From NCBI RefSeq assembly GCF_018618475.1, contig NZ_JACSMD010000001.1, forward strand, positions 744,001 to 808,000: a DNA stretch of 64,000 bases, given 5' to 3'. The notes below the pieces were generated by a model. That model saw only the letters and a list, made by a program, of their open reading frames with translations, was not told the origin of the DNA and made no database searches. A program made the translations under genes and the position numbers. Below, one piece after another: positions 177 to 9,888 of this stretch (position 1 is its first letter; each line of letters begins with the position of its first letter). The stretch comes from Exiguobacterium sp. s122 (GTDB lineage: Bacteria > Bacillota > Bacilli > Exiguobacteriales > Exiguobacteriaceae).

Positions 177-252
177 AGACTTAGGTGGTGGAAGAGTCGA
201 AATCACAGAGCAGTTAACAAAGTCGGAAGTACTAGAACTTATAAGAAAATGA
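160..252 (+). CDS. Possible small protein of 30 residues overlapping the preceding gene
   Basis: ATG at 160 reads MRRVYEDLGGGRVEIT... and ends at TGA 250-252. It overlaps the previous ORF by 17 nt in another frame. A GGAGG lies at 152-156, but only 3 nt before this ATG; an in-frame GTG at 169 is the alternative start. No family is recognised. It could be a coupled small gene or chance. 78 nt of A+T-rich DNA separate it from hen1, where I see no clear terminator. Confidence 0.3.
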   Translation: MRRVYEDLGGGRVEITEQLTKSEVLELIRK

Positions 253-330
253 CGAGCACGTTCGAATTCAAAAATATGGTATATTTAAATAAAATTGAGC
301 GAATAAGTTCGAAGAAAGTCAGGTGACACT

Positions 331-1677
331 GTGCAACTTTCCATTCAAGCCAAAGGCAAACACGTAGACGTATTATCCTATTTACTCGCAAAAAATCCAA
401 ATAACTTATATGAACGCAATGAAAACGGTCATCTTGTCCGTATGTTCTTTAATCGCTTTGAGGCTGAGCATGTGGACGTCACATTTTTTGTGACGCCTGA
501 CCCCATTGAGCTTTCCCGTAATAATGCTGGGCAATATGACATCACTTCGTACATAAATGACCGAGAGTTCGCCGTGAGTAGTATTTTTTGTTCGTTACTA
601 CGAACTGCCCTTGGTACGGCACTAAACGGGAAACCGAAACCGGAATATACAGAATGGGTAGATCATCCATTTTCAATGGATCTTTCTGTCGGTCCGATTG
701 CAAGTGCGTTAAGTGATGAGGCGATTCGTGAGTTGTTCGAACCGCTAGGCTATCAAGTCGATTTCATCTATAGCGAATCAGGCTACGAGTTAGACAAAAC
801 AAAAAGACGGTCCGCCCGGATGCTACGACTTTCAGGGTTGACGACGCTTCAAGCCGCGTTGCGACAACTTTATGTGTTGATTCCTGTCATGGACAACTAT
901 AAGCATTATTATATCGACGAAAAAGAAGTTGAAAAACTGAAGCGCTACGGGGAAGGGTGGTTGGATGATCATCCACAACGTTCGTTCATTTTAAAACAAG
1001 CCTTGCGCTTTAAAGAAGTGTATCGCCTTGTTGAGGAAGAAACGACGACACAAGCACCAAAAGTCGATCGTCAGCGGTTGAACGATATGCGCTATGAGAC
1101 AATCATTGAAAAAGTCCGTTCCTTGACCGAGCGGCGCATCGTGGTTGATATGGGCGCTGGGGAAGGGAAACTTGCGAGCCGACTCGGATTCGTTCCAGGA
1201 ATCGATACCATTTATGCCGTTGAACCGTCTGAGCGGGAACGTCTCAAAGCTTTAAAACGTTATGAGAAAAATGCCGAAGATCCGAGCTTCAATCCGCCAC
1301 TCTCGATGTTTGGTTCGCTCTTTTATGTCGATGATCAGTTACGTGGCGCAGATGTGATGATTCTTTGTGAGGTCATCGAACATATCGATGAAAATCGAAT
1401 TCCTAAGATGATGACGACACTATTGAATCTTTATCGACCGAAGACTCTTTTCGTGACGACACCAAATCGTGAGTATAACGAGGTGTATGGGCTCGACTCG
1501 TCGTATCGTCATCCGGATCATCGCTTCGAATGGACAAGATCTGAGTTTATATCTTTTTGTGAGACGCAGGCCGAACGGTTCGGCTACACATGTACATTCA
1601 GTGGGATTGGGGACAGCCATCCGACATTCGGAGAGCCAACGCAACTCGCCGAATTTACGAGAAAGCAGGTGTTGTAA
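331..1677 (+). CDS. hen1: Hen1, 3'-terminal RNA ribose 2'-O-methyltransferase
   Basis: Bacterial Hen1 methylates the 2'-OH at the 3' end of cleaved RNA before ligation, so that the repaired junction resists re-cleavage; it is the partner of Pnkp. The protein has 448 residues, close to the Clostridium thermocellum protein. The N-terminal half (about 1-240) is the bacteria-specific Hen1 N-terminal domain. The C-terminal half is a SAM methyltransferase with motif I VVDMGAGEGK (271-280). The metal-ligand cluster typical of Hen1 is intact: E347, E350 and H351 in EVIEH, and H397 in PDHRFEW. The start is GTG at 331, with AGGTGA at 321-326. The stop overlaps the pnkp start (TAATG), so the two are co-translated. 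Substrate-RNA specificity cannot be read from sequence. Confidence 0.95.
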   Translation: MQLSIQAKGKHVDVLSYLLAKNPNNLYERNENGHLVRMFFNRFEAEHVDVTFFVTPDPIELSRNNAGQYDITSYINDREFAVSSIFCSLLRTALGTALNGKPKPEYTEWVDHPFSMDLSVGPIASALSDEAIRELFEPLGYQVDFIYSESGYELDKTKRRSARMLRLSGLTTLQAALRQLYVLIPVMDNYKHYYIDEKEVEKLKRYGEGWLDDHPQRSFILKQALRFKEVYRLVEEETTTQAPKVDRQRLNDMRYETIIEKVRSLTERRIVVDMGAGEGKLASRLGFVPGIDTIYAVEPSERERLKALKRYEKNAEDPSFNPPLSMFGSLFYVDDQLRGADVMILCEVIEHIDENRIPKMMTTLLNLYRPKTLFVTTPNREYNEVYGLDSSYRHPDHRFEWTRSEFISFCETQAERFGYTCTFSGIGDSHPTFGEPTQLAEFTRKQVL

Positions 1678-4271
1678 TGCACATTCAACTCCCTTATGCA
1701 GGAATTGTCTTATTGATTGGCCCATCCAATAGTGGAAAGTCGACATGGCTCAATCAATTAATTGAAAATGAAATCATTCGTCCGAGCGAAGTCGTTAGTT
1801 CTGATGATTATCGCAAGCTCGTAGGAGATGTCGAACATATCGATTGGAAAGGTCATCCCCCGGACGAAGCCGATTCGCTCTTTGAGACGTACCAAGATAT
1901 CTCGACAGAGGCGTTCGCTCTTATGACCTCGCTCATCGAAGCGAGAGCGCGGCTAAATAAATTAACAATTATCGATGCGACACATCTGTATGCGTCAGAT
2001 CGAAAAAAACATATTGAACTGGCCCATCGCCTCCATCAGCCGGTCTATGCGCTCGTTTTGGATATCGCGCAACCAATTTTGTTGGAGCGAGATCGATTGC
2101 GCGACTTTCCTCGTGGGGGACGACGCGTCAAACAACAAGTCCAAGTGTTCAATCGTGAAAAAAGGACCATCAAGCGGGAAGGATTCGATCAAGTTCACGT
2201 CATTTCAGACGTCAGTCAAGTGAACGTCGAGCGTGAAAATATGAATCCGCTACATCTATCTTCGGAGCGCGGAATCGATGTGATAGGGGACATTCACGGA
2301 TGTTTCGATGAATTTCTTGAGCTGTTGGAACGATTAGGTTATTGCCCAAATGACGAGGGGTTATACGTGCATCCAGAGGGACGAATTTTCTTATCTCTCG
2401 GTGATGTTATGAGCCGTGGACCAAAGTCACTTGAGACGATCGAGTTCTTCATTCGTCATGTCGAAGCTGGCATCGCACACATGATTGATAGCAATCACGG
2501 CTGGAAAGTGTTGCGTTGGCTCGAAGGGCGAAACGTGACGATGAAGCATGGAGATGAGCTGTTTGTCGAGGAACTTCAAATGTATGAGAAGCAGAAGGGT
2601 TCTGACGCGACGGAAGCATTAAAATCTTCAATGAAACGGTTGTTAAAGCATGCTCCCTCGCACTATGTTTTGACAAAACAGGCTATTCCGACAGCGGTCT
2701 GTGTGCATGCGGGAATCCGGGACGAGTTCATCGGGAAGACTTCACGGGACATTAGTGATTTTTGTCGATATGGCGACAATGAAGGATTTGATGAGGCGGG
2801 TAAGCCGATCCGAAAAGATTGGACGGTGCAACACAAATCGAAGACGTTAATCATTTGGGGCCATGACCCACGACCGCGACCGCTACGCCTCAATCACACC
2901 ATTAATATTGACCAAGGGGTTGTCTTCGGAGGACAGTTAACGGCGTTTCGTTATCCGGAACAAACAATTGTTCAAGTCGAGGCGAAGCAAGACTACGCGC
3001 AAGTGGACGACAACCCGCTCGTGACGCTAGAAGCGAAACGATTAGACCCGCCAAATATCGGGAAGCTTATGAATGGTTATACGGTTGACACGGAAGCGTT
3101 CGGTGAGATTCATGTATCGAAAGAAACGGCACTCCCATCGATTGATCTCGTCTCACATTATACGGTCCCCCTTGAAGAACTCGTCTACATTCCACCAACG
3201 ATGAGCCCGACACCAAAGCCGTCTGCAGAGGAAGACTATCTCGAGCACCCGAATGAAGCGATTGCCTATTATCGAGAACATGGCATCACACGATTAATCG
3301 CGGAAAAGAAACATATGGGGAGTCGCGCCATTCTTCTACTATTTAAAAATGAGGATGCTGCAGAGAAGGCGATTGGTCGTCGAACGAAAGGAATCATTTA
3401 TACTCGTTCTGGTAGAAAGTTTTTTGAACGTGAACAAGAAAACGAGATCGTCTCGCGACTTCATCAATCGTTAACAACACATGACTACTTCACGACGTAT
3501 CAGACCGACTTTGTTTTACTCGATGCTGAAATTTTGCCTTGGAACTTGAAAGCACGAGAGTTAATTCGGAATCAGTACGCCCATGTGGCGGAACAGGCGT
3601 TACTTGATCGGAAGCAATTGCAACAAACGCTTGAATCCGCTGTCGACCATGTGGAGGGTATTCAGGACTGGTTCACTGAAGTCAATCAAAAACTGAAACA
3701 AGCGGAGACGTTCAAGCAGGCGTTCCAAACGTATTGTTGGGATGTTGAAGAAATTGATTCGATTCAAATTGCACCGTTTCATGTCTTAGCCCATAGCGAA
3801 GAAACCTTTTTCAATCAGTCACATGAATGGCATATGAGTATGAATCAAAAGTTAGCGGAGATGGATGACTTATTTCTAGCAACCGATTATAAAATAATTG
3901 AAGATACAGATAGCGCAAACGATGTAATCGAGTGGTGGAAAATGATGACGGAAGACGGTCATGAAGGAATCGTCATCAAGCCGGAGCGGTTCATGACGAA
4001 GGTAGACGGGAAACTGATTCAGCCAGCAATCAAAGTCCGTGGACGGAAGTATTTATCCATCATCTATGGGATGGATTACTTAGAGCCTGACAACTTGAAA
4101 CGTTTGAAGAAACGAAACGTCTCAAAAAAGCAAAAGCTGGCATTACGTGAATTTGCGCTCGGAATGGAAGGCATCAAACGTTTTGTTCATCGTGAATCGC
4201 TTGAACGTTATCATGAATGTGTGTTGGCCACATTGGCGATGGAAGCTGAACCGGTAGATCCACGCCTGTAA
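1677..4271 (+). CDS. pnkp: Pnkp, polynucleotide kinase-phosphatase-ligase for RNA repair
   Basis: This 864-residue three-domain enzyme heals and seals RNA breaks: it phosphorylates the 5'-OH, removes 2',3'-cyclic phosphate and joins the ends. The kinase domain carries the P-loop GPSNSGKST (15-23), then SSDDYR. The metallophosphatase domain has GDIHG (D205, H207), GDVMSRG (D243, R247) and SNHG. The ligase domain has the nucleotidyl lysine in KHMGSR (K545), and further on EGIVIKP and IKVRGRKYL. One oddity is that the family signature GDxxDRG reads GDxxSRG here (S246). The start is ATG at 1677, overlapping the hen1 stop, with AGGTG at 1667-1671. An in-frame upstream GTG/ATG lies inside hen1 and has no suitable ribosome site. 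Ligase activity in this family needs Hen1 as partner, which matches the coupling. Confidence 0.95.
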   Translation: MHIQLPYAGIVLLIGPSNSGKSTWLNQLIENEIIRPSEVVSSDDYRKLVGDVEHIDWKGHPPDEADSLFETYQDISTEAFALMTSLIEARARLNKLTIIDATHLYASDRKKHIELAHRLHQPVYALVLDIAQPILLERDRLRDFPRGGRRVKQQVQVFNREKRTIKREGFDQVHVISDVSQVNVERENMNPLHLSSERGIDVIGDIHGCFDEFLELLERLGYCPNDEGLYVHPEGRIFLSLGDVMSRGPKSLETIEFFIRHVEAGIAHMIDSNHGWKVLRWLEGRNVTMKHGDELFVEELQMYEKQKGSDATEALKSSMKRLLKHAPSHYVLTKQAIPTAVCVHAGIRDEFIGKTSRDISDFCRYGDNEGFDEAGKPIRKDWTVQHKSKTLIIWGHDPRPRPLRLNHTINIDQGVVFGGQLTAFRYPEQTIVQVEAKQDYAQVDDNPLVTLEAKRLDPPNIGKLMNGYTVDTEAFGEIHVSKETALPSIDLVSHYTVPLEELVYIPPTMSPTPKPSAEEDYLEHPNEAIAYYREHGITRLIAEKKHMGSRAILLLFKNEDAAEKAIGRRTKGIIYTRSGRKFFEREQENEIVSRLHQSLTTHDYFTTYQTDFVLLDAEILPWNLKARELIRNQYAHVAEQALLDRKQLQQTLESAVDHVEGIQDWFTEVNQKLKQAETFKQAFQTYCWDVEEIDSIQIAPFHVLAHSEETFFNQSHEWHMSMNQKLAEMDDLFLATDYKIIEDTDSANDVIEWWKMMTEDGHEGIVIKPERFMTKVDGKLIQPAIKVRGRKYLSIIYGMDYLEPDNLKRLKKRNVSKKQKLALREFALGMEGIKRFVHRESLERYHECVLATLAMEAEPVDPRL

Positions 4272-4291
4272 CGATAGAGGAGGGTTTATAT

Positions 4292-5248
4292 ATGGAAACG
4301 ATTGATCCAAAAGACATCACCCGCATCGCCGTCGTCGGCGCTGGCTGGGTCGGTATTAGTTTCGCTTACCAACTGTCTACGGCAGCACTCTGTGAGGAAC
4401 TCGTCTTAATCGACTCCAATCACGCCAAGGCCGAAGGGGAGGCGATGGACCTGAACCACGGCATCTCGTTCGCCCCGAGCCCGGTCCGGATTTGGGCAGG
4501 GGACTATTCAGACTGTCGGGATGCAGACATCGTCGTGATCACGGCCGGTGCCGCTCAGAAGCTCGGACAGACGCAGATGGATCTCGCGGAACAAAACGCG
4601 ACGGTCGTCCGAGACGTCACAAATCACGTCATGGCGAGTGGATTTGATGGTATTCTCGTCGTCGCGACGAACCCGGTAAACGTCATGGCGCACGTCGCCT
4701 GGAAAGCGTCCGGTTTACCGAAACGCCGGATCATCGGCTCAGGGACCGTCCTCGACACGGCGCGGCTTCGCTACAAGGTCGGCGAGTACTTCGACTTGTC
4801 CCCACGCAACTGCCACGTCTATTATATGGGCGAACACGGCGCCGGGGGCTTCGTCGCATGGGACAATGCACGGATTTATGGGAAGTCGATTGCCCAACTC
4901 TTAGCAGAGAATGACCAGTATAGCCAAGCGGACTTGGATGACATTTATCAACGCGTCCGCGACGCCGCCAACCAAATTATCGAATATAAGAGTGCGGCCT
5001 ATTATGCGATTGGGCTTGGTCTCCTTCGTATCGTTCGGGCCGTCGTCCGAAATGAGAATTCGGTTGTGACAATCGGAGCGCATCTTGACGGCGAATACGG
5101 GGCATCCGGACTCCACATCGGGGTACCGGCCCTGATTGACCGGACCGGGATTCGTCAAATCATCGAGATCGATTTGACGGAGGACGAGCAACAACAATTC
5201 AATGCTTCGGTGGGGCGAATTCAACGCGCCATCGCGAACGTGGAATAA
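4292..5248 (+). CDS. Divergent L-lactate dehydrogenase-like protein (2-hydroxyacid dehydrogenase family)
   Basis: A 318-residue member of the LDH/MDH family. The NAD fold is intact (GAGWVG at residues 16-21, acidic D41). The LDH-type Gln is present (Q89, position 102 in LDH numbering), as are the catalytic D155/R158 and H182 of GEHG. However, the mobile-loop arginine (R109 in LDH numbering) is Q95, and the substrate-pocket threonine (T246) is A236. The segment after GEHG is also unusual (AGGFVAW instead of DTE/DSxxPVWS). Normal lactate turnover is therefore doubtful, and another 2-keto acid or a regulatory role is possible. The gene lies 20 nt after pnkp with its own GAGGAGGG site and is more G+C-rich than hen1-pnkp. 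It ends at a strong terminator. Confidence 0.8.
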   Translation: METIDPKDITRIAVVGAGWVGISFAYQLSTAALCEELVLIDSNHAKAEGEAMDLNHGISFAPSPVRIWAGDYSDCRDADIVVITAGAAQKLGQTQMDLAEQNATVVRDVTNHVMASGFDGILVVATNPVNVMAHVAWKASGLPKRRIIGSGTVLDTARLRYKVGEYFDLSPRNCHVYYMGEHGAGGFVAWDNARIYGKSIAQLLAENDQYSQADLDDIYQRVRDAANQIIEYKSAAYYAIGLGLLRIVRAVVRNENSVVTIGAHLDGEYGASGLHIGVPALIDRTGIRQIIEIDLTEDEQQQFNASVGRIQRAIANVE

Positions 5249-5249
5249 G

Positions 5250-5282
5250 AAAGGCCCGATTGCTTGGCAATCGGGCCTTTTG
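5250..5282. terminator. Bidirectional intrinsic terminator
   Basis: A 12-bp stem AAGGCCCGATTG / CAATCGGGCCTT is followed by TTTTG. The A-rich left side lets it also serve the convergent agcS gene. Confidence 0.9.
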
Positions 5283-6665
5283 TTACGACGCTTTCTCTTC
5301 GGCGACGTCTTTTTTGTAATACTTCTCTGACGTAAAGAACTCGGTCGTCAGTCGCTTCACTTCACCGCTCAAGAGCAAGACGGCAATCATGTTCGGGATG
5401 AGGATCATTGCGAGCATCAAATCGAGGAAATTCCAAATCATTTGGGCACCCCCGATCGCACCGATGACGATGGAAGCGATGTAGACGATTTTCATAAAGA
5501 AGCCCGCCTTTAATCCGAATAAATACTCAGCTTGGCGTGAACCGTAAAAGATGATGACGATAATCGTCGACAAGACGAAGAAGATGAGTGAGATGGTGAC
5601 GAGTAGACTGCCTGTATACCCAAAGTATTCACGGAACGCGATTGTCGTCAACGCAGCCGGATCACTCATTGCTCCGTCACGTGTCCAGACACCTGATGAC
5701 AAGACAACGAAAGCTGTCGTACTACAAATGATGAGCGTATCAATGACGATTCCGATAACCGCCCAGAAACCTTGACGCACCGGATGATCGGTTTGCGCGG
5801 CCGCGTGGGCGATTGGCGCCGTACCAAGCCCGGCTTCGTTCGAATAAAGTCCGCGGGCAAAGCCCCAACGGATCGTCTCAGCGACAGCGGCACCAGCAAA
5901 ACCACCGAGCGCGGCCATCGGCTGGAACGCATACGAGAAGATGAGTCCGAGCACGTCTGGAATTTGCGTGATGTTCATCAAAACGATGACGAGTCCAGCA
6001 CCGACATACACGAGCGCCATGACGGGAACAACGATTTCCGTAACTTTTGCGATCCGTTTCAACCCACCAAATACGACGACACCGACAAGTGCGGCGACGA
6101 GGAGTCCTGTGATCAACGTGTTGCCGTTGAACGTCTCGCGCACGGCTGAACTGACGGCGTTGCCTTGTACCATGATGCTCGGGATGAGTTCAATCATGAG
6201 CGCGAAAGCGAACCAAGAGGCGAGCCATTTCATCTTCAAGCCTTTCGCCATGTAATAGACGGGTCCGCCGACGAACTCACCGGCCTCATTTTTCTCGCGA
6301 TAGCGGACAGCGAGGACGCTCTCGGAGAATTTGATGGCCATTCCGACGACGGCGATGACCCACATCCAAAAAATCGCACCCGGTCCCCCGAACATAATCG
6401 CTGCTGGTACACCGATGATGTTCGCGGCACCGACTGTTGAAGACAAGGCAGATGTCAAGGCTTGTCGTGGACTGATGTCACCTTCACCTTTTGGTTTTTT
6501 GAACACACTGCCGAACGTTTGCTTCACTATGTATAACGGGTATCGAAATTGGAAAAAACCTAATCTAATCGTGAGAAAGATACCGGACAAGACGAGAAGG
6601 GAGATGATCGGGACACCCCAAAGCCAATCTGAAAACTTCGTTACGCTATCAATCAATACATTCAC
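5283..6665 (-). CDS. Alanine/glycine:cation symporter (AGCS family)
   Basis: A 460-residue integral membrane protein that takes up small neutral amino acids with Na+ or H+. Family landmarks include GGPVYYMAKGL, and YSNEAGLGTAPIAHA around residues 275-290. About ten hydrophobic segments are visible. It resembles the AlsT group of Bacilli; the exact substrate cannot be told. The ATG is preceded by AGGAGTG. It is monocistronic, convergent with the LDH-like gene and divergent from acylphosphatase, with a 14-bp palindrome in the shared promoter region. Confidence 0.9.
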   Translation of the reverse strand: MNVLIDSVTKFSDWLWGVPIISLLVLSGIFLTIRLGFFQFRYPLYIVKQTFGSVFKKPKGEGDISPRQALTSALSSTVGAANIIGVPAAIMFGGPGAIFWMWVIAVVGMAIKFSESVLAVRYREKNEAGEFVGGPVYYMAKGLKMKWLASWFAFALMIELIPSIMVQGNAVSSAVRETFNGNTLITGLLVAALVGVVVFGGLKRIAKVTEIVVPVMALVYVGAGLVIVLMNITQIPDVLGLIFSYAFQPMAALGGFAGAAVAETIRWGFARGLYSNEAGLGTAPIAHAAAQTDHPVRQGFWAVIGIVIDTLIICSTTAFVVLSSGVWTRDGAMSDPAALTTIAFREYFGYTGSLLVTISLIFFVLSTIIVIIFYGSRQAEYLFGLKAGFFMKIVYIASIVIGAIGGAQMIWNFLDLMLAMILIPNMIAVLLLSGEVKRLTTEFFTSEKYYKKDVAEEKAS

Positions 6666-6712
6666 CGAATCACTCCTATACCATTATTTTACTTATATAT
6701 TGTTTCCTATCT

Positions 6713-6726
6713 TTTAATCGATTAAA
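6713..6726. promoter_or_regulatory. Perfect 14-bp palindrome in the agcS/acyP divergent promoter region
   Basis: TTTAATCGATTAAA reads the same on both strands and sits in the 96-nt gap between two divergent starts. It is a candidate operator for an unknown dimeric regulator. Confidence 0.4.
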
Positions 6727-6761
6727 CCTGATTGATCAAATTTAGAGGAGGAGAAGTTTAT

Positions 6762-7034
6762 ATGGCGATTGCAAAACGACTGATTGTATCTGGCCACGTC
6801 CAAGGAGTTGGGTTCCGTTACTTTACCCAATCGACCGCGCTCGCATATAAAGTGAAAGGATGGGTTCGCAACTTGAGTGACGGAACAGTTGAGATTCATG
6901 CCGAGGCGGAGGAGGAACAGTTCGACTCGTTTAAACAGGCGTTACGAGACGGGAATCGTTTCGTCGGGGTCGAACGAATCGAGGAAACAGATATAGCTGA
7001 AGAAGGGCATCGAAAATTCGATATCCGTTATTGA
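6762..7034 (+). CDS. acyP: Acylphosphatase
   Basis: A 90-residue cytosolic enzyme that hydrolyses acyl phosphates. It has the family signature GHVQGVGFRYF with catalytic R19, and VRNLSDG with catalytic N37. The chosen start is ATG 6762, preceded by AGAGGAGGAG at 6744-6753; an upstream in-frame start would place the ribosome site inside the coding region. The length is standard for the family. Confidence 0.95.
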   Translation: MAIAKRLIVSGHVQGVGFRYFTQSTALAYKVKGWVRNLSDGTVEIHAEAEEEQFDSFKQALRDGNRFVGVERIEETDIAEEGHRKFDIRY

Positions 7035-7080
7035 CCAATTGTTCAACAAATTCCAATATAACGGCTTGACAACTGGGCTT

Positions 7081-7107
7081 GCTCTCTCAAACGAGGGAGC
7101 TTTTTGT
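7081..7107 (+). terminator. Intrinsic terminator after acyP
   Basis: The stem GCTCTCTC / GAGGGAGC (one G-T pair) is followed by TTTTTG. Confidence 0.75.
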
Positions 7108-7157
7108 GATGAAAAATCCACTTTTCCAAAAAATAAACATCTTTTTTGCAGATAGGG

Positions 7158-7185
7158 TGGTCAAAAAAAGTAAAGTGTGTATAAT
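7158..7185 (+). promoter_or_regulatory. SigA-type promoter of brnQ
   Basis: A perfect -10 TATAAT (7180-7185) sits 16 nt after TGGTCA, a 4/6 match to the -35 box. Transcription would start near 7192. Confidence 0.55.
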
Positions 7186-7203
7186 GAAATAGACCAAGCG
7201 CTT

Positions 7204-7218
7204 ATTTGTCAGAAAATT
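7204..7218. promoter_or_regulatory. CodY box in the brnQ leader
   Basis: ATTTGTCAGAAAATT matches the CodY consensus AATTTTCWGAAAATT at 13 of 15 positions. It lies just downstream of the predicted start site, a roadblock position. BrnQ transporters are classic CodY targets. Confidence 0.65.
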
Positions 7219-7277
7219 TAGTCATTTAGTACGATTAATCACACGGAAGGTATTACAATGTATGTGGAGGTAGTTGT

Positions 7278-8597
7278 ATGAAAAAATCGACATTATTCCC
7301 GTTAGCGTTTACGATTTTCGCGTTATTCTTCGGGGCCGGGAACTTACTGTTCCCACCGATGCTAGGGGCAATGGCGGGTGAGAACCTCATTCCGGCCATG
7401 ATTGGCTTCGTCATTACTGGCGTTGGTCTCCCACTCCTAGCACTCTTCGCGGTTGCGCGAGTCGGTGGAGGGTCTGATCAAATCGCTCGGTATATTCCGA
7501 AGCGACTAGCGCTCCTTTTGACGGGACTAATGTACGTGGCAATCGGACCGTTCTTCGGGATTCCACGGACGGCAGCCGTCACGTATGAGATGGGACTTGC
7601 GCCGTTCTTAAGTGCACCATCGACGCTCACGCTCGCTCTCAGCTCAACTGTCTTCTTCGGATTGACATTCTTCTTGACGCTCCGTGCTCAGAAGTTGATT
7701 GAAATCATCGGTCGCATCATCACGCCAATCTTGTTGTTCTTGCTTGCGGCGATTGGAATCACGAACCTCGTGGCTCCTCTCGGGACGCCGTCAGCTCCGG
7801 CAGCAGGCTACGAGACGTGGATTGGAGCGCTCGGTGAAGGATTCAAACAAGGGTATTTGACGATGGACGTCTTCGGCGCTCTCGTCTTCGGGGCCATCGT
7901 ACTCGTCACGCTTAAAGCGAACGGGATGTCTGATCAAAAAGAAGCGTCTTCGCTTCTTCGTACGTCAGGAATCCTTGCTGTCACGTGTTTGATGCTCGTC
8001 TATATCTCGCTCGGCTCAATCGGTGCGAATATGGCAGGCGTCACAGGGGCAACAGACGGTGCGACATTGCTTCAAACGTTTGCTGGCTCTTCATTCGGTC
8101 AAGTTGGAATGCTCGCTCTTGGAGCAGCCGTGTTCCTCGCTTGTTTGACGACAGCAGTTGGCCTGATCACAGAGTTCTCTCGTTTCATCAGCACGACGTT
8201 TAAGTCGCTTAAGTACTATCAAGTCGTGATCGCAACGACACTATTCGGCTACTTGATTTCTCTCGTCGGACTCAATACGTTGATTCAAATCGCCGTACCA
8301 CTTCTCATTCTTTTATATCCAGTTATGATTGCACTCGTCCTCGTCTCAATCACAGAACGACTTCAACGCAACCCTCATGTTGCGATGAAAGCGACGGTTT
8401 ATACGGCGCTCGTTCTCTCGCTCTTTGAGACGGTTCATAGCTTACAGCCAACAGTGGCTACGAATTGGATCACGAACTTGCCGATGGCGGATATCGGGCT
8501 CGCCTGGGCAGTTCCAACATTGATTGTGTATGTGATTACCTTGTTTCTTCCGAAACGACAGTCACGTGAACAACTCGTCCAATCACGAATCTCATAA
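7278..8597 (+). CDS. brnQ: Branched-chain amino acid transport system II carrier protein
   Basis: A 439-residue LIVCS-family symporter for leucine, isoleucine and valine. It opens with the family signature FPLAFTIFALFFGAGNLLFPP and has about twelve hydrophobic segments. The start ATG follows GTGGAGG. It is monocistronic, with its own promoter and terminator. A CodY-like box in the leader predicts repression when branched-chain amino acids and GTP are plentiful. Confidence 0.93.
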   Translation: MKKSTLFPLAFTIFALFFGAGNLLFPPMLGAMAGENLIPAMIGFVITGVGLPLLALFAVARVGGGSDQIARYIPKRLALLLTGLMYVAIGPFFGIPRTAAVTYEMGLAPFLSAPSTLTLALSSTVFFGLTFFLTLRAQKLIEIIGRIITPILLFLLAAIGITNLVAPLGTPSAPAAGYETWIGALGEGFKQGYLTMDVFGALVFGAIVLVTLKANGMSDQKEASSLLRTSGILAVTCLMLVYISLGSIGANMAGVTGATDGATLLQTFAGSSFGQVGMLALGAAVFLACLTTAVGLITEFSRFISTTFKSLKYYQVVIATTLFGYLISLVGLNTLIQIAVPLLILLYPVMIALVLVSITERLQRNPHVAMKATVYTALVLSLFETVHSLQPTVATNWITNLPMADIGLAWAVPTLIVYVITLFLPKRQSREQLVQSRIS

Positions 8598-8604
8598 TTG
8601 AGTC

Positions 8605-8636
8605 AAACCCATCCTCTGGTCAAGGATGGGTTTTTT
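8605..8636 (+). terminator. Intrinsic terminator after brnQ
   Basis: The stem CCCATCCT / AGGATGGG is followed by TTTTTT. Confidence 0.9.
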
Positions 8637-8706
8637 GCTGTCTTATCGTTTGCTCATTCCAATCCTGAACAAGTAAAATGAATAGATGAAAAGGAAGTGA
8701 CAAACG

Positions 8707-9888
8707 TTGACTACAAAACAAAATAAACAATTGGCGATTCTCATGCTCAACATGTTCATCGCCGTCGCAGGTTTCGGTATTATCATCCCCATCATTCCCG
8801 ACTATTTGAAGATGATCGGGGAAGGCGGGACGGCCGCCGGGCTGATGATTTCTGTTTTTGCCGGTGCCCAGTTGCTCATGTCGCCGGTTGCCGGAAAATG
8901 GGCCGATGTATATGGCCGTCGTCCGATGATCATCGCTGGGTTAATCGGCTTCACCGTGTCGATGGGAGTCTTTTACTTATCTGATAACTTGACCGTCTTA
9001 CTTATTTCTCGGGCAATCGGGGGTGTCGGTGCGGCACTTCTCATCCCGGCAATCTTCGCCTACGTCGCCGATATCACGACGCTCCAGCAACGAGCAAAAG
9101 GAAACAGTTATATTTCCGCGGCAATGTCACTTGGTATCGTCATCGGGCCGGGAATCGGTGGGTTCTTTGCCGAGTTCGGACTGAAAGCGCCGCTTCTCTT
9201 ATCGGCCATCGTATCGTTCGTCGCGGTGATTTCGTCCATCATTCTGTTGAAAGAACCGGACCGCGAAGTCGCGCCGGTCACGGCTGATAACGAATCGTTA
9301 CCGCGCCAGCTCATCTCATCGACGAAGAAACCTTATTTCTTTGTACTCGTCATCAACTTGGTCATGGCGTTTGGGCTCATGGCGTATGAGTCGGTGCTCG
9401 GATTATTCGTAAGCGAGACGTTCAGTGCGACGCCGCAACAAATCGCGGTCATGATCACAGGAACAGGAATTGTCAGCGTCATCGTCCAGCTCTTTGCCGT
9501 CGACCGTCTCGTGTCATTGTTCGGGGAAATCAAAGTCGTCCTCATCTTCATCATGCTCGCGGCGCTCGGCTTCTTGTTCTCGCTGTTTGCGGGGTCATAT
9601 GCCATTTTCTTCGCCGTCACGCTGATCATCTTCTTGTCGACGTCCATCCTTCGTCCAGTGCTCAACACGCTCGTATCGAAAATGGCCGACAAAGAACAAG
9701 GGTTCGCGATGGGGATGAATAACGCCTATATGAGTATCGGAAACATCGTCGGCCCGACGCTCGCTGGCATTGCATTTGATATTGATATGCGCTATCCGTT
9801 CATTATGGGTCTCGCCCTACTCTTAATCACGTTCGGGGGGACGCTGAACTGGACCAAACGGAAACGGGTCGCTACGTTCGAACAGTAA
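8707..9888 (+). CDS. MFS drug efflux transporter (DHA1, NorA/Bmr-like)
   Basis: A 393-residue 12-helix major facilitator. It has motif A in GKWADVYGRRPM between helices 2 and 3, and the antiporter motif C GIVIGPGIGG in helix 5, which point to proton-coupled export of drugs or other hydrophobic compounds. The start is TTG 8707, preceded by AAGGAAGTGA. It is followed 18 nt later by the DUF72 gene, so the two are probably one transcript. The substrate is unknown. Confidence 0.85.
   Translation: MTTKQNKQLAILMLNMFIAVAGFGIIIPIIPDYLKMIGEGGTAAGLMISVFAGAQLLMSPVAGKWADVYGRRPMIIAGLIGFTVSMGVFYLSDNLTVLLISRAIGGVGAALLIPAIFAYVADITTLQQRAKGNSYISAAMSLGIVIGPGIGGFFAEFGLKAPLLLSAIVSFVAVISSIILLKEPDREVAPVTADNESLPRQLISSTKKPYFFVLVINLVMAFGLMAYESVLGLFVSETFSATPQQIAVMITGTGIVSVIVQLFAVDRLVSLFGEIKVVLIFIMLAALGFLFSLFAGSYAIFFAVTLIIFLSTSILRPVLNTLVSKMADKEQGFAMGMNNAYMSIGNIVGPTLAGIAFDIDMRYPFIMGLALLLITFGGTLNWTKRKRVATFEQ

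Follow-up and report, generated by a model that had tools for sequence, protein, structure and literature searches.

The gene downstream of pnkp in the window (the whole 64,000-nt stretch of Exiguobacterium sp. s122 DNA analyzed here) encodes a paralogue of lactate dehydrogenase (LDH), called ldh2 below, that has lost the catalytic arginine of the mobile loop (R109) and probably no longer performs the job of the parent LDH. Comparison of its orthologues shows that the pocket was rewritten in two steps, both of which survive in living genomes. R109 is thus missing from a natural and conserved protein whose close orthologues retain it and whose host genomes also encode an ordinary paralogue. This combination allows direct tests of how function changes after the loss of a transition-state residue and of the order in which pocket changes occurred.

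Pocket residues of the ldh2 protein

The gene and the segments of its pocket discussed below are as follows.

4292..5248, + strand: ldh2, LDH-fold paralogue with a remodelled pocket (318 aa, ATG start)
4553..4588, + strand: mobile-loop segment AQKLGQTQMDLA (codons 88-99)
4832..4849, + strand: EHGAGG (codons 181-186), with H195 kept and the changes D197A, T198G and E199G
4970..4999, + strand: N227 (Y237N) to A236 (T246A) (codons 227-236)

The ORF reading of the window showed an intact frame with no internal stops, and the protein matched both the N- and C-terminal LDH domains of Pfam. Its alignment with the three solved Bacillus LDHs that match it best is gap-free and spans residues 7-315 or 10-315. 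Residue numbers from 102 to 246 follow the dogfish LDH convention and were carried over via the alignment, giving the map Q89=102, Q93=107, Q95=109, N127=140, N130=143, D155=168, R158=171, H182=195, A184=197, G185=198, G186=199, N227=237, and A236=246. The loop segment thus holds Q89 (Q102), L91 (P105L), Q93 (E107Q), Q95 (R109Q), and M96 (L110M), and the substitutions of the whole protein include P105L, E107Q, R109Q, L110M, D143N, D197A, T198G, E199G, Y237N, and T246A. All 19 orthologues retain Q102, N140, D168, R171, and H195. R160 and H175 of ldh2, which we take to be R173 and H188 of the fructose-bisphosphate (FBP) site, are also invariant (19/19).

Structure prediction gave a mean pLDDT of 48 with 10 close rows and of 74 with 14 rows, and the top structural matches of the latter model were Bacillus LDHs. 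Its pLDDT fell below 50 at residues 156-159, 178-200, and 225-232, among others. Because the model is weak at these pocket segments, pocket size is argued below from the size of the side chains.

R109 is a textbook catalytic residue of the LDH/malate dehydrogenase (MDH) superfamily, and E107 and Y237 are contact partners during closure of the LDH loop. R109Q, D197, T246, and the E107-Y237 contact have reportedly all been addressed in LDH mutagenesis studies. In PMC9486893, R109 is described as stabilizing the transition state, T246 as conserved across all LDHs, and position 199 as always acidic in LDHs, balancing charge when the loop closes.

The comparators were 78 LDHs, of which 38 were the LDH1s of the family and 40 came from other Bacilli. 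The original prediction had placed a glutamine (Q95) at 109 and an alanine (A236) at 246, and had described the segment after GEHG as rewritten. All three readings stood: position 109 is an arginine in 78/78 comparators, the gap-free alignment to the solved Bacillus LDHs places A236 at 246, and GEHGAGG contains D197A, T198G, and E199G. Outside the family, residue 109 was read in the 40 LDHs and in 4 LDHs on viral contigs, which also carry the arginine (4/4). E107, D143, D197, Y237, and T246 were each invariant across the comparators, with A246 in 19/19 ldh2 proteins vs T246 in 78/78, and position 199 was E in 76 comparators, Q in 2, and G in all 19 ldh2 proteins. The changed ldh2 states at 107, 109, 143, 197, 198, 199, 237, and 246 were seen in none of the 78. 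The prediction that the other catalytic residues are kept holds for H195, D168, R171, N140, and Q102, but it had overlooked E107Q (Q93), D143N (N130), and Y237N (N227), and it did not spell out which residues (D197A, T198G, and E199G) make up the rewritten segment.

At 16 first-shell positions listed in PMC4109310, ldh2 carries the common LDH residue at 12 and differs at 4 (109, 199, 237, and 246). The 78 comparators share 54 invariant columns, and the first shell showed no significant excess of changed columns among these (3/13 vs 5/41; P = 0.29). A leave-one-lineage-out control, designed after this test with the ldh2 changes already known, scored each lineage at the columns invariant in the remaining comparators. 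The 31 control LDH lineages had changed 0 to 2 such columns, and none at the 12 active-site positions checked, vs 8 columns in the ldh2 proteins with glutamine at 109 (Q-type) and 4 in those with arginine (R-type). Eight control lineages are about equally divergent (mean identity 0.53-0.57 vs 0.55 for Q-type ldh2) and changed 0 to 2 columns as well, so overall divergence fails to explain the pocket changes.

Origin, two stages of change, and selection

ldh2 was present in all 19 genomes of the Exiguobacterium group, with 81-100% identity and an open frame in each. Every one of these genomes also encodes, elsewhere, LDH1 (63-65% identity to the query) and MDH. None of the 19 genomes of the sister genus had ldh2; all of them carry LDH1 and MDH only. 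The nine named loci with 88-96% identity to the window were all from Exiguobacterium, and a search of 398 Bacilli genomes with an ldh2 profile, which scores ldh2 at 698-717 bits and LDH1 at 501-532 bits, gave no match outside the family above 432 bits.

In a tree of 97 rows, the 19 ldh2 sequences formed one clade (support 100/100) adjoining two LDH1 clades, and ldh2 and the LDH1s of the family grouped apart from the 40 other LDHs (support 100/100). This tree contained no MDH and leaves the branching order of ldh2 and the two LDH1 clades open. Since the ldh2 clade stands beside both LDH1 clades, the duplication behind it dates to the base of the family or close to it. The stem of ldh2 is long (0.62, compared with 0.098 and 0.2 in the LDH1 clades).

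The orthologues fall into two types that share E107Q, E199G, and T246A (19/19). The R-type (6 genomes) has R109, D143, D197-T198, and Y237, and already carries Q107, G199, and A246. In the Q-type (13 genomes; clade support 100/99), Q109, N143, A197-G198, and N237 occur jointly in 13/13. A first stage, common to all 19, accordingly brought T246A, E199G, and E107Q, with the acid at 199 lost before arginine 109. A second stage, in the 13 orthologues, brought R109Q with D197A, D143N, T198G, and Y237N; the arginine of the loop disappeared along with two acidic charges near it, and tyrosine 237 was swapped.

One Q-type gene (genome G013) looks mosaic. Two of its 15 type-diagnostic sites, residues 15 and 63, carry the R-type state, and every one of the other 13, which begin at residue 76, carries the Q-type state. 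At the DNA level, it is nearer to the R-type in the first 120 nt, about equally near to both up to nucleotide 300, and then nearer to the Q-type, so that the 5′ evidence consists of two diagnostic residues and near-equal identities. The sufB, sufS, symporter, transporter, and LDH1 genes of this genome cluster with the R-type genomes. Its ldh2 lies inside the Q-type clade in the careful tree and joins the branch of the R-type clade with a quick FastTree run (0.91), a discrepancy that a mosaic gene could produce. From this mosaic pattern, with its thin 5′ evidence, the catalytic part of Q-type ldh2 was probably transferred as a block by recombination.

Evolutionary rates (Nei-Gojobori dN/dS, leaving out pairs with undefined or tiny dS) were low in both types, with a median of 0.059 in the Q-type (range 0.022-0.115; 77/78 pairs) and of 0.031 in the R-type (15/15 pairs), compared with 0.015 for LDH1 (158/171 pairs in Exiguobacterium, 134/171 in the sister genus). 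The codons of Q95, N130, A184, and N227 vary synonymously while the residues stay fixed. With a dN/dS of about 0.06, ldh2 is under purifying selection and not decaying. A decaying duplicate, for which the stem longer than those of LDH1 and the roughly fourfold higher dN/dS could speak, is hardly credible given a dN/dS far under 1, frames open in 19/19 genomes, and substituted residues that are fixed though their codons differ, and it was rejected on selection and conservation. Of the original prediction of a new substrate rather than decay, the second half is thus borne out by dN/dS and the fixed residues, and a new substrate or function is the simplest reading of the two-step change.

Possible function, regulation, and known relatives

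The upstream regions of the two paralogues differ. A perfect TGTGA-N6-TCACA, which we take to be the form of a site for the CRP/FNR family, was found within 200 nt upstream of 19 of the 22 LDH1 genes scanned, and the other 3 have it with one mismatch (the remaining 16 of the 38 genes had too little flank). Upstream of ldh2 it occurred in 0/19 genes, even allowing one mismatch; when these ldh2 stretches were shuffled by mononucleotide, a perfect site arose in 0.05% of cases. ldh2 and LDH1 are probably regulated separately, since this element stands upstream of LDH1 and never of ldh2.

Taken at face value, these data point to a paralogue of the fermentative LDH that gained a new function in one Exiguobacterium clade, possibly an NAD(H)-dependent oxidoreductase whose larger, neutral pocket would accept 2-oxo/2-hydroxy acids, a reading that we regard as evenly poised. 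The protein retains the NAD-binding fold, the H195-D168 hydride/proton machinery, the R171 carboxylate anchor, and the candidate FBP-site residues. Because T246A, E199G, T198G, D197A, and Y237N each put a smaller side chain in the place of a larger one, the pocket is predicted to be roomier and neutral. The substrate would then be a C2-oxo (or imino) carboxylate that exceeds pyruvate and oxaloacetate in size and carries less charge than they do. In place of R109, its carbonyl might be polarized by the substrate itself, by Q109/N237, or by a bound water, and the loop would close in a different mode. The enzyme would be used outside the LDH1 regulon, as the upstream region suggests. Counting against a new function are the protein's score above the L-LDH equivalog cut-off and the lack of significant first-shell enrichment, and the loss of R109 may simply mean very low turnover.

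In a second, doubtful though by no means negligible possibility, Q-type LDH2 would be non-catalytic or nearly so and would bind NADH/FBP and act as a sensor of redox state or glycolytic flux, or as a subunit tuning LDH1 in mixed tetramers. The transition-state arginine, E107, and Y237 are lost while R160 and H175 are invariant in 19/19, the protein is 65% identical to the LDH1 of the same genome, and the upstream elements of the two genes differ, all of which would fit such a role. This alternative accounts for the loss of R109 equally well, but not for the strict retention of the catalytic set: H195, D168, R171, N140, and Q102 are invariant (19/19), although some of these residues should have been lost from a protein that only binds its ligands.

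A slow or kinetically tuned L-lactate dehydrogenase, suited for example to lactate oxidation or high pyruvate and with compensating changes elsewhere in the protein, seems unlikely. It would agree with the retention of Q102, with the score above the L-LDH equivalog cut-off, and with the R109 still present in R-type orthologues; set against these are the loss of R109, T246, and the acidic residue at 199, the latter two given as universal in LDHs in PMC9486893, and the absence of the LDH1-type upstream site in 19/19.

Within the new-function reading, Q-type ldh2 might even be an LDH-fold imino-acid reductase acting, for example, on a cyclic or linear ketimine (2-imino acid), although we consider this a very long shot. 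Such a substrate would itself be positively charged at the carbon that reacts, which would suit an arginine-free loop and a neutral, roomy pocket with R171 and H195 kept. If this were true, ldh2 would have left carbonyl chemistry through two steps that are both present in living species.

By sequence and descent, the closest known proteins are the bacterial L-LDHs (TIGR01771; B. cereus 4lmr/4ln1 and B. stearothermophilus 1ldn), which have the same fold and share with ldh2 Q102, N140, D168, R171, H195, and the FBP-site residues. The ldh2 protein scored 358.8 bits with TIGR01771, the NCBIfam L-LDH equivalog (cut-off, 303.55), and is 65% identical to the LDH1 of its own genome vs 35% to its MDH. 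It differs from bacterial L-LDHs in lacking R109, T246, the acidic 199, D197, Y237, and E107; it is thus an LDH by descent that fails the L-LDH description at the defining residues 109, 199, and 246. Because its score clears the cut-off of this equivalog, automated annotation could label it an L-lactate dehydrogenase, and lactate production has been studied in strains of this genus (PMC3744680). The same text mentions L-lactate dehydrogenase in an Exiguobacterium genome, with the copies not distinguished.

Among malate dehydrogenases, the comparison was with MalDH type 3 and the intermediate group, and the A246 of ldh2 is a MalDH-type state (PMC9486893). Unlike MalDH, ldh2 has Q102 instead of R102 (Q89 in 19/19) and has lost R109, and all 6 MDH models listed for the protein scored under their cut-offs; Q102 and these scores led us to reject membership in the MDHs. 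L-2-Hydroxyisocaproate dehydrogenase (HicDH) is likewise a natural LDH relative with altered specificity. HicDHs have position 102 changed to a residue other than Q or R, the loop lengthened, and R109 kept (PMC4109310), whereas ldh2 has kept position 102 and the loop length and has lost R109; with Q102 kept, no loop insertion, and no R109, it was not assigned to the HicDHs. Apicomplexan LDH, of the same superfamily, was also neofunctionalized after duplication, in its case by an insertion that lengthened the loop with R109 kept (PMC4109310), while ldh2 has no insertion and has lost R109. A literature search covering titles and the openings of abstracts found no natural LDH lacking R109 and no Exiguobacterium LDH paralogue.

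Gene neighbourhood of ldh2 and the hen1-pnkp insertion

Around ldh2, the window contains the following features.

331..1677, + strand: hen1 (PF12623 Hen1_L plus methyltransferase), variable cargo in 3/19 genomes
1677..4271, + strand: pnkp (kinase, phosphatase, and PF16542 ligase domains), in 3/19 genomes
4272..4291, + strand: pnkp-ldh2 gap of 20 nt, with the ribosome-binding-site-like GAGGAGGG and without GGGTATGCTAA
5253..5284, unstranded: terminator-like hairpin with T tail (11-nt arms, by eye), common to ldh2 and the converging symporter gene
5283..6665, − strand: sodium:alanine symporter family gene, conserved convergent neighbour of ldh2 in 18/19 genomes

The ORF of pnkp opens at 1590, but translation likely begins at the ATG at 1677, which overlaps the stop codon of hen1. 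The 20-nt distance to ldh2 given in the original prediction is correct (pnkp ends at 4271 and ldh2 starts at 4292), and it had been read as a possible co-transcription with an RNA repair operon. The conserved upstream neighbour of ldh2 is what we take to be a suf operon ending in sufB (18/19 genomes; gene names assigned by eye). sufB and ldh2 are directly adjacent in 7 genomes and separated by other ORFs of 70 aa or more in 11. hen1-pnkp occurs in 3/19 genomes, every time within this gap. The carriers (G000, G007, and G015) form no single clade in the ldh2 tree, where G000 groups with G004, G005, and G018, all without hen1-pnkp, which suggests repeated gain, transfer, or loss of hen1-pnkp at one site.

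A functional tie to RNA repair did not survive these counts, with pnkp in 3/19 genomes and ldh2 in 19/19. The original prediction had also suggested looking for the gene at other hen1-pnkp loci. Matches to pnkp, many of them to the phosphatase domain only, were present in 93 Bacilli genomes, and the best 30 loci were examined. hen1 stood beside pnkp in 30/30, and an LDH only in the three from Exiguobacterium; within about 1.5 kb of hen1-pnkp, it was found at 0/27 Bacilli loci outside the genus. That ldh2 is a functional member of a hen1-pnkp operon, as the 20-nt gap and the likely co-transcription in three genomes could indicate, is therefore exceedingly improbable, and this partnership was rejected on synteny and taxon counts. 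The position of ldh2 beside RNA-repair genes is a local accident, arising from cargo insertion.

The promoter-like element GGGTATGCTAA, whose GGGTAT resembles, we presume, a sigma-B −10 box, lies 35-45 nt before the ldh2 start in 15/19 genomes. Where sufB is adjacent (7 genomes), a hairpin and T run precede it. The four genomes that lack it upstream of ldh2 are the three hen1-pnkp carriers and G013. Since the usual element is missing in the three carriers, read-through from hen1-pnkp is plausible there, and the insertion of cargo probably put ldh2 under the hen1-pnkp transcript. The predicted co-transcription is thus plausible in this genome, but it arises from an insertion and reflects no conserved link; a separate promoter, which would have spoken against it, is indicated in 15 genomes and apparently not in this one. 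A consensus scan for sigma-70-type promoters over 200-5400 found 9, vs 6.2 (SD, 2.1) in shuffles, and none on the + strand between 1770 and 4795. The consensus terminator scan listed part of the hairpin at 5253..5284, with no excess of sites in the region (4 vs 5.2 in shuffles).

The sufB-ldh2 gap acts as a hot-spot for cargo and defence genes, because in L064 the gap that holds hen1-pnkp elsewhere contains a three-gene ABC-3C/Lamassu-like defence system (5084-9810, − strand; LmuA, 3e−18; MComp1; LmuB, 2e−59). In L052, the one genome of the 19 besides those with sufB upstream, phage-like genes (tail, holin-like, and endolysin-like, by eye) fill the stretch examined upstream of ldh2. A copy of the sufB 3′ end (GATGGAAGGTTCGATTGGATAATT) stands immediately before ldh2 in this locus, and the sufB end is likely the attachment site of a prophage, of which the ldh2-side end was observed. 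On the other side of ldh2, the symporter gene of L063 (8996-10378, − strand) is split into two ORFs of 70 and 384 aa, possibly by a frameshift or a sequencing error. A gene for an LVIVD-repeat protein is further cargo of the gap in L055, where it was tested, and the same cluster occurs in L061 and L062. Two small genes, one of them DUF6678, lie upstream of hen1 in the hen1-pnkp genomes (1-176 in the window, 3052-3885 in L070), and the DUF6678 gene is also found in the sufB-ldh2 gap of 4 genomes without hen1-pnkp.
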